Shown: piece after piece, positions 50,230 through 54,607 of the stretch
Layout: every line of letters begins with the position of its first letter
Position numbering within the stretch: position 1 is the stretch's first letter
Source: Gemmatimonadota bacterium
GTDB lineage: Bacteria > Gemmatimonadota > Gemmatimonadetes > Longimicrobiales > Gaopeijiaceae
DNA: 64,000 nt
Direction: 5' to 3'
NCBI GenBank assembly: GCA_015664885.1
Contig: DQPL01000064.1
Coordinates: 62,001-126,000 of the forward strand
The notes under the pieces: generated by a model
Database searches by the model: none
What the model was told of the DNA's origin: nothing
The model's input: the letters and a program-made list of their open reading frames with translations, nothing else
Position numbers and translations under genes: made by a program

Positions 50230-52053
50230 TCAATCCATGCCGAAGGCGAGAAGCACGTTCCCCCCTCGGCTACCTAGGAAGGAGTAGCCGGCGTTGACGT
50301 AGACCATCCCGTCGACGATCACCGGTCCGGAGGCATTGAGCGAACCTCCTGTCGCCGGCACACCGTTCACCGTGTCGAAGTCCCCGTTCGTGTCGTAGAT
50401 CCAGATGACTGCGCCGGTCTCGGTCGAGTGGGCCCTGAGACCGCCATCGGTAGACCCCGAGAAAACGACCCCGGGAATCGCCGAGACGGCGCCCGGGAGC
50501 GATGCGTCACAGCCGCTCATGAAGCCGGTTCGGACGCCGAGATCCGCGCAGATCGGGGGTGGCGGCTCGGCGTGCCAGGCCAGCTCACCCGTTCTCAGAT
50601 GGACGGCCGACAACCCACCGGGTTCCGGCGTGAGCACGTCCGATACAGCGAAGTAGGCGTTGTCGGCATCGACCGCGAAGCCCCATTCGATCCCCCCGAG
50701 CGCACTGCCCGCACCCGCGCGGTACTCCCAGACGATGGCGCCGTCACGGTCTGGGTCGAGGCCGTAGGTCATTCCCGACTTCTGACCGATCACGAGCAGG
50801 TCGCTGCCGTTCGTCATCGTGACGAGTGCCGGTGAGGCCCCAAAATCGTGGTCGGGGCCCTCGTCCTGCGGACAGTTGGCGTTGCTTCCAGCGCACCCCA
50901 GGATGAACGCGTCTTCGGGGGTCAGCTGCTTCCACCAACGGATCTCTCCGCTCCCGAGGTCGAAGGCGACGATCGCATCGCTCGTCTCGGCCGCCGGTTG
51001 CGTATACGCGTTGCCGGTGGCCGCGTAGAGGAGACCGCGACTGGCGTCGATGGTGGGGGACGACCAGATCGCGGCCCCCGCTGGGCCCGACAGCGTGGTG
51101 CCTTCGGGGCCCGTGCCTCTGGACACCGGCTCCTCGGGAATCGCGAAAGTCTTCCAGATCTGATCGCCCGACGCCGCGTCGAGCGCTACGATGCTGCCGC
51201 GGAACGTGCAGCAGCCATAATCCGGATCAGCAGCCAGCACTTCCTCGATCGATGACACCGGCACATAGAGACGGTCCTCGTGCAGCGTCGGCGCCCCGGT
51301 GATACGGGCTCCGGGGTGGCTCTCGACTTTCTGGCTCCAGACCTCCGCACCGGTCGCCGCGTCGATCGCATAGACACGCGCACCAGTGTCGCCGAAGAAC
51401 AGTGCGTGGCCATCATCCAAGGCGCCGACCGAGATCGCCGTGCGCACGCCGCCACGGGCGACATAGGTCCAGTGGCTGCATCCGGTCTTGGCGTCCAGGG
51501 AATAGACGACGCCATTCTGGCTTCCGACGTAAACGCGCCCGCCGGCAACCGCCGGCTGCCCCCAAGCGGAGGTCGATTCGGGAAACCCGAACGCCCACTT
51601 GAGCGTGAGGCCCGGCACCTGGTCGACGCCGAGACCAGCGCTCTCGCTCGACTGGAAACGAAGGTTCTCGCCGCCCGCGCCCCATCCACTCCAGTGGGGA
51701 CCAATGAGCAGGTCCCCAATTGCCGGCGTGCTCTCACACCGACCGACGCTGGTGCCAATCGGATCGCCCGACGCAGCCCGGCCTGTGATGTACTCCGCCA
51801 CCGCGCGGCGGTCGAGGATGGTCAAATCCTGGCCCTGCAGGGCCATGGTCCCAGAGGTGAGCGCGGTCACGATGGCATCCGGTGAGCGGTCGCGCATCGC
51901 CTCGAGCAGCGGGGCTCGCTGCACCCCCGGCTCCGTGTGGCACCTCGCGCACTGCGCCTCGAACAGCGCCGCGCCGTCAGGCCCTTGCGCGGCAGCCGCG
52001 ACGGCGCCGTAAAGCACAAACATCAGGACCAACGTGCTCACTCGTCTTGTCAT
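50230..52053 (-). CDS. quinohemoprotein (polyvinyl-alcohol-dehydrogenase-like PQQ propeller with cytochrome c domain)
   Basis: 607 aa. After the signal peptide (LYGAVAAAAQ) a cytochrome-c domain with heme motif CARCH (about residue 35) and GTMALQGQDLTILDRRAVAEYI is followed by a PQQ propeller: GPHWSGWGAGGENLRFQ, YSLDAKTGCSHWTYV, AIDAATGAEVWSQ, ALDAASGDQIWKT, AFDLGSGEIRWWK, VHLRTGELAWHAE and STETGAVIWIYD. N-terminal heme plus this propeller signature is characteristic of PVA dehydrogenase-like proteins. It oxidises an alcohol polymer or secondary alcohol in the periplasm. Confidence 0.9.
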   Translation of the reverse strand: MTRRVSTLVLMFVLYGAVAAAAQGPDGAALFEAQCARCHTEPGVQRAPLLEAMRDRSPDAIVTALTSGTMALQGQDLTILDRRAVAEYITGRAASGDPIGTSVGRCESTPAIGDLLIGPHWSGWGAGGENLRFQSSESAGLGVDQVPGLTLKWAFGFPESTSAWGQPAVAGGRVYVGSQNGVVYSLDAKTGCSHWTYVARGGVRTAISVGALDDGHALFFGDTGARVYAIDAATGAEVWSQKVESHPGARITGAPTLHEDRLYVPVSSIEEVLAADPDYGCCTFRGSIVALDAASGDQIWKTFAIPEEPVSRGTGPEGTTLSGPAGAAIWSSPTIDASRGLLYAATGNAYTQPAAETSDAIVAFDLGSGEIRWWKQLTPEDAFILGCAGSNANCPQDEGPDHDFGASPALVTMTNGSDLLVIGQKSGMTYGLDPDRDGAIVWEYRAGAGSALGGIEWGFAVDADNAYFAVSDVLTPEPGGLSAVHLRTGELAWHAEPPPPICADLGVRTGFMSGCDASLPGAVSAIPGVVFSGSTDGGLRAHSTETGAVIWIYDTNGDFDTVNGVPATGGSLNASGPVIVDGMVYVNAGYSFLGSRGGNVLLAFGMD

Positions 52054-52224
52054 GCCAGCTCCGTGGGGGAAAGCCTACCGGGCAAAAAGGTTTACTAGGA
52101 GGAGAGGAAGAAACTAGGTCCCAGTACCGGATGGGCAATTACCCCGACTTTCCCAAGGGGCTGGCCCGCTGGAGTCCCCCACCCGATATTGCCGGCTCGA
52201 ACCTACCGTACACTCAGGAGACAG

Positions 52225-52815
52225 ATGCACATGCGCAAAGCAATCGCGCTGGGCCTTCTCGCGGGAGTGTTCGCGTTGGGCGCGCCGGTCAACGTTAGTG
52301 CTCAGGACTCGGGGCTACTCGCCGTGGGCGAGATGGCTCCGGACTTCGAACTCCCGGGAGCAACCCGTTACGGGGCGCTGGAGAATCCGGTTCGACTGAG
52401 CGACTACCTTGGCGAGACGGTCGTCCTCGCGTTCTTCTTTCGCGTCAGGACGCCTGGCTGAACAGTCCAAATGACAGCGTACCGTGATCAGTACGCAAGC
52501 CTGTTTAACGAAGGACAAAACGTTGTCCTCATCGGGATCTCCAACGATCCCGTCGAGGGACTCGGATCCTGGCTCAAGGACGCGGACTTCCCGTTCTTGT
52601 TCGCGAGCGATGCCGACAACGACGGCGCCACCTACACCGCGTTCGGTGGTGGTTTGCGTGGCAACGGCATGGTTGATAGCAGAGCCGTCATTGTGATCGG
52701 GCCAGACGGCCGGATCGCAGCGACGATCGAGGCCTTCAACCAGAACGACCCGATGGCCTATGAGGCATTGGCAGAAGTCATCGACCGCGTGACACCGGAG
52801 CCGGACGGCATTTAG
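52225..52815 (+). CDS. exported peroxiredoxin with in-frame TGA at the peroxidatic Cys (candidate selenoprotein)
   Basis: The frame is 196 codons plus stop, interrupted only by TGA at 52459-52461 (codon 79). AGGAG precedes ATG 52225 by four and the next in-frame ATG by ten bases. Signal peptide ends VNVSAQ. The Prx fold is complete: VGEMAPDFELPGATR, VRLSDYLGETVVLAFF, then RTPG-TGA-TVQMTAYRDQYA, VVLIGISNDPVEGLGSWLKD and AVIVIGPDGRIAATIEAF. The TGA is precisely where AhpC/TSA and Bcp-like proteins have the catalytic Cys (T-P-G-C-T). No other Cys exists in the product, so it would be a 1-Sec peroxiredoxin needing an external reductant. The alternative is a TGC-to-TGA nonsense mutation in a decaying gene. 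Confidence 0.75.
52477..52496 (+). promoter_or_regulatory. candidate bacterial SECIS hairpin
   Basis: GCGTAC and GTACGC form a perfect six-base-pair stem with an eight-base loop CGTGATCA. The stem begins 16 bases after the TGA and the second loop base is G followed by T. Known bacterial SECIS elements have a small apical stem-loop 16-37 nt downstream of the UGA with a G among the first two loop positions, so distance (22 nt to the G) and loop composition fit. The hairpin lies inside the coding sequence, as bacterial SECIS must. Confidence 0.6.
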
Positions 52816-52894: not shown

Positions 52895-53443
52895 TCAGGT
52901 GCCGAACAGTCTCTCCACGGCACTGAGCAGGTCCTGGCCTCCACCTACGCCGGTGTAGACGACCTTCCCGTCCTCGTCGAGCATGACCACGATCGACGTC
53001 GTCGTCGCGTTGTAGGCGCGCACGGCCGCGCCGCGAGCGTCCCATAGGTACGGATACCCAGGGTTGTGTCCGTCGAGGTGCCGCTTCACCCGACGCACGC
53101 TTTGAGAAACCCCCACAGCCACAGCGATGACGTTGATGCGGTCCCCGTACCGCATCTGGACCTGGTCCATTTGGGGCTGCAGCGCCTCGCAGTTCTCACA
53201 CCACGTGGCCCAGAACTCGAGCAGCGCGGGACCGCCCTTCACGTAGTCGCTCAGGTCGACGGCATTGCCGTCCAAGTCCTCGAGCGCGGCGCCGGGCCCG
53301 ACGGTACCGTACGCGAGCGACACGGCGCCTTCTCCGGAGGCTTGTGAGTAGACCGCATCGGGTACCAGCAGCGCAGCACACGCCGCGAGCAGAGGCATCT
53401 GGAGAACTGCGCTGCATCGCGGAAGGAAAGCCCTGATTCGCAT
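52895..53443 (-). CDS. TlpA-like thioredoxin-fold protein
   Basis: 182 aa from ATG at 53443; GAGGATTTT precedes it and overlaps the stop of the CcdA-like gene. An N-terminal hydrophobic segment (LLAACAALLVPDAVYS) exports or anchors it. The active site is WATWCENCEALQPQ (C-x2-C), followed by ITVIAVAVG-like sheet and the cis-Pro region TSIVVMLDEDGKVVYTG. It should act in periplasmic disulfide exchange, reduced by the adjacent CcdA-like protein. It is a plausible reductant for the candidate selenoperoxiredoxin that converges on it. Confidence 0.92.
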   Translation of the reverse strand: MRIRAFLPRCSAVLQMPLLAACAALLVPDAVYSQASGEGAVSLAYGTVGPGAALEDLDGNAVDLSDYVKGGPALLEFWATWCENCEALQPQMDQVQMRYGDRINVIAVAVGVSQSVRRVKRHLDGHNPGYPYLWDARGAAVRAYNATTTSIVVMLDEDGKVVYTGVGGGQDLLSAVERLFGT

Positions 53444-53451
53444 AAAATCCT

Positions 53452-54189
53452 CTACAGGTTGTAGCCGGCGGTCATGAAGTAATACTCGGCCATGCCCAAC
53501 ATGAGCACGGCCGCGCCGCGTTTGACCCACACCATCCATGCTCCCGAACGCGGCATCAGCGCTACGGTTCCCGAAAAGAGCCCTACCGCGACGAGTAGCG
53601 CCGTCATTCCCAACGAAAAGACGAACAGGTAGACGAAGCCCATGAGGCCGGCTTCGGTCGCCGCCACCCACGTGAGCACCACCGCGAACGCGGGCGCGCC
53701 GCAGGGAGCGGCCACCACGCCGGACATCGCACCCATGCCGAAGACAGCCCCATACGACCCGCCTCCGCTCTGACTCGCGTACTCTAGCAGGCGTCGCGGC
53801 ACCGGCACGGGCAGCACGTCCAGCATCGTCAGAGCGAAGAGGACGAGCATGTTGCCGATCGCGAACAGCGCCCAAGGGCTCGCGCTCACGGTTCCGAAAA
53901 TCTGACCGGACAAGCCCGCGAGGGCTCCGAGCACCGCGTAGAGCGTGGCCAAGCCAACCGCATAGGTAAGTGTCAGCGCGACCGTACGTGACTTGGGTTG
54001 GTCGTCCCGGCTGCTGCCCGCGATCACCGCGGCTGTGATCGGGATCATCGGGTACACGCACGGCGTGAGGCTGGTGAGCACACCCGCGCCAAAGAGCACG
54101 GCGAGCGCCAGCAAGGGGCTTTGCGAGAGAGCCTCGGTGAGGCCGCCGGCGGGCTCGATCTGGAGAAGGACGTAGAGGGTCACGGCCAT
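53452..54189 (-). CDS. CcdA/DsbD-type transmembrane thiol transporter
   Basis: 245 aa from the ATG that begins MAVTLYVLLQIEPAGG. Six to seven helices with the two functional Cys in LTSLTPCVYPMIPITAAVIAG and GVVAAPCGAPAFAVVLTWVAATE. It passes electrons from cytoplasmic thioredoxin to periplasmic partners. It is directly upstream of the TlpA-like gene (eight bases), a common operon. Only the membrane domain is present, without the DsbD alpha or gamma domains. Confidence 0.93.
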   Translation of the reverse strand: MAVTLYVLLQIEPAGGLTEALSQSPLLALAVLFGAGVLTSLTPCVYPMIPITAAVIAGSSRDDQPKSRTVALTLTYAVGLATLYAVLGALAGLSGQIFGTVSASPWALFAIGNMLVLFALTMLDVLPVPVPRRLLEYASQSGGGSYGAVFGMGAMSGVVAAPCGAPAFAVVLTWVAATEAGLMGFVYLFVFSLGMTALLVAVGLFSGTVALMPRSGAWMVWVKRGAAVLMLGMAEYYFMTAGYNL

Positions 54190-54331
54190 AAAGTGTGGGT
54201 GGATGTGCCGGCCGTCCAACCCCGAGGGGGACGATCCGGTTCCGGGTGGCGGAACCGCGCTCGTTTCACCAGCGTACTGTCGTGTGACTGTAGGTGCAGC
54301 CGCAGCGCTCTCGCACCCGATAGGACGATCG

Positions 54332-54607
54332 ATGGATATTCGAGCAATCGCCGAACTAGTGATGATGGCGCTCGTGGGACTCTCGGTGCTGACGATCGCC
54401 GTCGGCTTCTCGGTGCGCATGTTCCTGTTGCCCGCTATGCGGGAACTACGGAGACTCTAGAGTGCAGAGGCGGACCAGGGCCAGACCCAGGTCGGGGCCC
54501 GCATCGACCATATCGAGGATCGCCTGGACTCGATTGAGAGCGGGATCAATCGCCTGCTGGCGACCAGCGAATTCGATCGCGAGCTGGAGGCTCCGAAACC
54601 GGACTAA
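54332..54607 (+). pseudogene. small membrane/coiled-coil protein split by an in-frame TAG
   Basis: MDIRAIAELVMMALVGLSVL begins a single membrane helix followed by RMFLLPAMRELRRL, then TAG (54458-54460). The same frame continues with a heptad-rich segment (GARIDHIEDRLDSIESGINRLLATSEFDREL) and ends TAA at 54607. Together they form the common 90-residue 'TM helix plus coiled coil' type of small protein. The amber codon would leave 42 residues. Either it is a nonsense mutation or the short product is the functional one. Confidence 0.6.

Follow-up and report, generated by a model that had tools for sequence, protein, structure and literature searches.

Peroxiredoxins (Prx) that carry selenocysteine (Sec) in a TxxU motif have been known since PrxU of Eubacterium acidaminophilum and the Sargasso Sea study. 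The gene described here resembles members of this PrxU/Prx TxxU family (COG1225/PF00578) in having the AhpC/TSA fold and Sec at the peroxidatic TxxU position, but its product is predicted to be exported and is free of Cys, and the Sec forms of its own family mostly have Phe or Tyr in place of the Pro of the PxxxTxxU motif. Its score against the NCBIfam model for PrxU (NF040737) is 40.1 bits, compared to a curated cut-off of 270, and therefore it is not a PrxU equivalog. Fold and active-site layout are likewise shared with PrxQ/BCP proteins and with AhpE (PDB entries 3hjp, 3drn, 5epf, and 1xxu), the latter also being a 1-Cys type. However, those enzymes use Cys where Sec is predicted here, and structure alignments give about 23-31% identity. 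AhpE and BCP are cytosolic. For an exported peroxiredoxin, the closest described arrangement is the Caulobacter ScsB-TlpA-PprX system, in which, as far as the account of Cho et al. (2012) given in PMC5403849 goes, a membrane transporter delivers electrons to TlpA and TlpA to a periplasmic peroxiredoxin.

The window analyzed in this study is a 64,000-nucleotide stretch of DNA from a Gemmatimonadota bacterium. On its forward strand, the reading frame spanning positions 52225-52815 is interrupted only by one TGA (52459-52461, codon 79) and ends with TAG at 52813-52815. We conclude, with a probability of roughly 0.9, that this gene encodes an exported 1-Sec peroxiredoxin made by hairpin-directed UGA decoding and likely recharged by TlpA/CcdA partners. 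A Shine-Dalgarno-like AGGAG, found by direct reading of the sequence (52216-52220), precedes two possible start codons, with 4 nt separating it from the ATG at 52225 and 10 nt from the ATG at 52231. The second is the likelier start because related proteins begin with MRK. Pfam matches to AhpC-TSA (E = 3.9e-21) and Redoxin (E = 1.4e-16) identify the product as a peroxiredoxin, and it contains no Cys at all; among the 145 Sec proteins assembled below, 140 have no Cys after residue 35. Reading of the sequence also reveals a predicted signal peptide of the n/h/c type (52225-52302), namely MHMRKAIALGLLAGVFALGAPVNVSA-Q, with cleavage expected between NVSA and Q. An N-terminal hydrophobic segment is present in 187 of 193 family members, and the six with a weak segment perhaps reflect start choice or missing ends. 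These features agree with a sequence-only reading of the same DNA, which had proposed an exported, Cys-free peroxiredoxin.

A profile search of 395 sampled Gemmatimonadota genomes (E <= 1e-25) located this peroxiredoxin family in 319 of them. More distant members were sampled too, giving a final set of 145 Sec and 48 Cys proteins, all distinct, with TGA and Cys, respectively, in the same codon column. This alignment places the TGA of the window (AFFFRVRTPG-U-TVQMTAYRDQY) at residue 79, the peroxidatic position, and so bears out the earlier proposal that the codon coincides exactly with the catalytic Cys of a T-P-G-C-T motif. Among protein matches in 118 relatives, nearly every close ortholog has TGA at this codon, and the close matches among named genome records are nearly all from Gemmatimonadota. 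The frame past the TGA stays open in close relatives, and the extra “TAG” seen in some homolog rows is the normal terminal stop among those aligned, so the additional nonsense codons or frameshifts that could have undermined the proposal were not found there. On each side of the TGA, dN/dS has a value of about 0.1, with a range of 0.02-0.20 across twelve pairs. Therefore, the downstream half is constrained and appears to be translated.

These data bear on the possibility that the TGA is a nonsense mutation, a mark of a pseudogene, or a sequencing error at a single Cys codon. One TGC or TGT to TGA change would give an identical sequence in one genome. However, 145 distinct homologs from many separately assembled genomes share this TGA, its presence in about 100 relatives already speaks against a read error, and the sequence downstream of it has a dN/dS of about 0.1. 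This combination is more than chance would produce, as the sequence-only reading had argued from the single gene. Furthermore, a downstream hairpin described below is fixed only in the TGA genes. The homologs refute this explanation, and we give it hardly any credence.

The source genome (a 3.96-Mb assembly, 99.3% complete) encodes the machinery expected for Sec insertion, which had been named as a check on the proposal. It carries a tRNA-Sec (67.9 bits, above cut-off) for which ARAGORN reports the anticodon tca (UCA), along with SelB (327 bits), SelA (545 bits), and SelD (381 bits), all above curated cut-offs. Of 60 genomes that carry the Sec gene, 57 have SelA, compared to 17 of the 58 that lack the Sec gene (Fisher p = 1.6e-14, with relatedness among genomes ignored). 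Three genomes with the Sec gene lack SelA, and two of these assemblies are less than 75% complete. Genome G078 has a Sec form with an intact hairpin (L160) but no SelA match in a 95%-complete assembly, possibly because of an assembly gap. Within one genus, genome G053 has a Cys form and no SelA match, whereas G028 carries SelA together with two copies of the Sec gene.

A genome-wide reassignment of TGA to Trp or another ordinary residue would leave the frame equally open. We regard the chance of this as vanishingly small, because TGA serves as the terminal stop in several orthologs of the same gene (for example, L031 and L034), the genome has Sec machinery, and the alternative residue at the site is Cys rather than Trp. 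The SelD gene of the same genome (L020; G000:C51:8526-9452) also contains one in-frame TGA (GTG-U-ACKLG) at locus position 1531, followed by a stable hairpin, and its sequence makes this SelD a candidate selenoprotein in its own right.

A predicted bacterial SECIS hairpin, GCGUAC-CGUGAUCA-GUACGC, lies at 52477-52496, beginning 15 nt past the TGA. It has a 6-bp stem and an 8-nt loop (52483-52490) with G at the second loop position followed by U, a UGA-to-loop distance of 21 nt, and a free energy of -9.7 kcal/mol. Published constraints for such elements (PMC13188914) specify a loop of 3-9 nt, a stem of 4-16 bp, a G at loop position 1 or 2, a distance of 16-37 nt from the UGA, and an MFE of -7.5 or lower, and the hairpin falls within all of them. 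We rejected the hairpin as stand-alone evidence, given a folding z-score of -0.94 and the comparable hairpins that follow 23 further in-frame TGAs of the window. What distinguishes this one is its conservation only. Rfam has no credible match at the hairpin site.

That conservation is extensive. All 20 nt, synonymous sites included, are identical in 132 of the 145 Sec genes, and the rest have one or two changes. The 48 Cys genes, in contrast, have 46 different sequences at this site and have lost the hairpin. When 45 Sec genes less than 80% identical were compared, codons 85-90 (Ala GCG, Tyr TAC, Arg CGT, Asp GAT, Gln CAG, and Tyr TAC) were 93-100% fixed, whereas the top codon frequency was 35-65% at most other conserved fourfold-degenerate residues. 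Therefore, selection acts on the RNA and is tied to the UGA. Because the stem is near-invariant in Sec genes, covariation is uninformative.

The hairpin is also relevant to a different explanation, in which the UGA truly terminates translation and a restart at the ATG at 52471 (Met83) yields the downstream half as a product of its own. This ATG lies three codons past the TGA and is usually conserved, but Met83 is replaced by Phe, His, or Val in other Sec forms, for example L143, L233, and L258. Moreover, the two halves are predicted by structure modeling to form one Trx fold, Cys relatives have a continuous protein, and a restart leaves the hairpin without explanation. We therefore consider a restart very unlikely. 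Sec decoding fits the TGA/Cys homologs, the SECIS conservation, and the Sec machinery together, and these comparisons of sequence support the gene as a candidate selenoprotein, as first suggested.

In an AlphaFold model computed from the family alignment (pLDDT 90.2), residue 79 lies at the N-terminal end of a helix, the arrangement seen in peroxiredoxins. The best PDB matches of the model include the BCP/PrxQ and 1-Cys AhpE entries listed above, and a sequence search also yields BCP-type thiol peroxidases. The window protein retains TxxU and an invariant Arg (Arg153). The Pro of PxxxTxxC is described as highly conserved, Sec peroxiredoxins included (PMC13188914). In this family it is present in 48/48 Cys forms and in only 23/145 Sec forms; the remaining 122 have mostly Phe (100) or Tyr (17), the others having Ile, Val, or Ser, and the residue in the window protein is Phe72.

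The AU test rejects a tree in which all Sec forms make up one clade (p = 3e-7), and thus Sec and Cys have been interchanged more than once. Three Cys genes are nested in the Phe-type Sec clade. They are compatible with one clade (AU p = 0.80) and may be one lineage, so three independent returns from Phe to Pro are not claimed here. Well-supported independent Sec/Cys pairs number only three, of which two agree on average and none contradict. The counts therefore associate Sec strongly with loss of the Pro, but on the tree the association is no more than suggestive.

The missing Pro in 122 of the 145 Sec forms, a residue of the peroxidase motif, would suit an exported selenoprotein that acts mainly as a thiol/selenol-disulfide reductase or redox sensor rather than as a peroxide scavenger. 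Relatives of TlpA and CcdA, whose genes adjoin this one, also act in disulfide reduction and cytochrome c maturation. However, the Thr of TxGU and Arg153 are kept and, together with Sec, constitute a predicted Prx active site. Likewise, there is no CxxC or UxxC motif, and the closest folds are peroxidases. A reductase or sensor is thus unlikely, though deserving of more weight than the other alternatives, and we favor a peroxiredoxin.

Downstream and convergent with the peroxiredoxin gene, the reverse strand encodes a TlpA-like exported thioredoxin with a WCENC motif (52895-53443), which is the proposed reductant. Next to it is a CcdA/DsbD_TM-like membrane electron transporter (53452-54420), whose true start is probably inside the ORF. 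Of 71 loci examined by tblastn, 52 had a match to TlpA and 49 had both TlpA and CcdA, with the pair on the opposite strand in 48 of these 49 and mostly less than 200 nt from the stop. Being convergent, these genes share no operon with the peroxiredoxin gene, and the pair is absent from 22 of the 71 loci, among which L093 and L165 are divergent loci of the Sec type. The neighbors nevertheless suggest a route of enzyme reduction. The Caulobacter system, to the extent that it is covered in the source cited above, similarly joins an exported peroxiredoxin to a TlpA-like thioredoxin and a DsbD-family transporter. Here, by contrast, the peroxiredoxin carries Sec, a CcdA-like protein takes the place of ScsB, and the evidence for the electron path is gene neighborhood. 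The conserved neighbors and this analog thus point to electron flow from CcdA to TlpA to the Sec peroxiredoxin. On the other side, the divergent upstream gene (50230-52053, reverse strand) encodes a PQQ-type beta-propeller with an N-terminal cytochrome c domain, and it has no match near the peroxiredoxin gene in the loci of 71 relatives.

We infer a series of steps comprising Sec insertion, export, peroxidase activity, and a TlpA/CcdA electron path. The UGA at codon 79 would be decoded as Sec by tRNA-Sec and SelB, directed by the hairpin within the coding sequence 15 nt downstream. The product, presumably a 1-Sec peroxiredoxin of the PrxQ/BCP-AhpE fold, would be exported by means of its signal peptide, and its selenolate would then reduce peroxides in the cell envelope. 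Because the protein has no resolving Cys, another protein would have to reduce the oxidized Sec. The TlpA-like thioredoxin encoded next to it is the most likely candidate, and the neighboring CcdA-like transporter may in turn recharge this thioredoxin from the cytoplasm. The broader proposal, that this is a phylum-wide selenium-based peroxide defense of the envelope (CcdA to TlpA to 1-Sec Prx) in which Sec frees the enzyme from a near-universal Pro, we hold at about even odds.

The sequence-only reading had also suggested that an exported, Cys-free Sec peroxiredoxin would be new. This holds for the branch, as the literature searched, from which subscription journals were largely absent, yielded no description of a Sec peroxiredoxin that is exported, free of Cys, and spread across the Gemmatimonadota. 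It does not hold for the chemistry, which is known because TxxU Sec peroxiredoxins have been described since PrxU. As far as that literature shows, four aspects are new, namely an exported branch without Cys that extends across the Gemmatimonadota, a SECIS that hardly varies within it, the TlpA/CcdA neighborhood, and the missing Pro. The last three had not figured in the sequence-only reading. Within the same literature, the phylum has almost no selenoprotein record, and this selenoprotein is widespread in it; the single paper there that mentions selenoproteins, peroxiredoxins, and the phylum together is, by its title, about a kinase-like selenoprotein. Annotation risks splitting such genes into two fragments or labeling them pseudogenes. 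The Sec/Cys ortholog pairs, in which the catalytic residue and a nearby Pro differ together, are a natural experiment that bears on why enzymes use Sec and on what the conserved Prx Pro does. The almost invariant 20-nt hairpin could serve directly as a probe, both of how SelB recognizes its target and for locating such genes.

Several individual loci deserve mention. Genome G001, from the genus of the window genome, is 99% complete and has SelA but no match to the peroxiredoxin, making a recent loss in this sister species possible. Four records titled Euryarchaeota archaeon or Gammaproteobacteria (L055, L072, L073, and L075) carry a gene 73-83% identical to the window protein, and for this reason their titles are probably wrong. 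In five genomes of one genus (g81; L213, L215, L222, L244, and L247), Cys and Sec forms occur in tandem on the same strand. Finally, an Acidobacteriota record (JAFBAJ010000828.1; L131) encodes a distant peroxiredoxin of ~32% identity with a stop at the peroxidatic site (FYPLAWTPV-stop-TAQM) and the Pro kept, a candidate Sec peroxiredoxin outside the Gemmatimonadota family.
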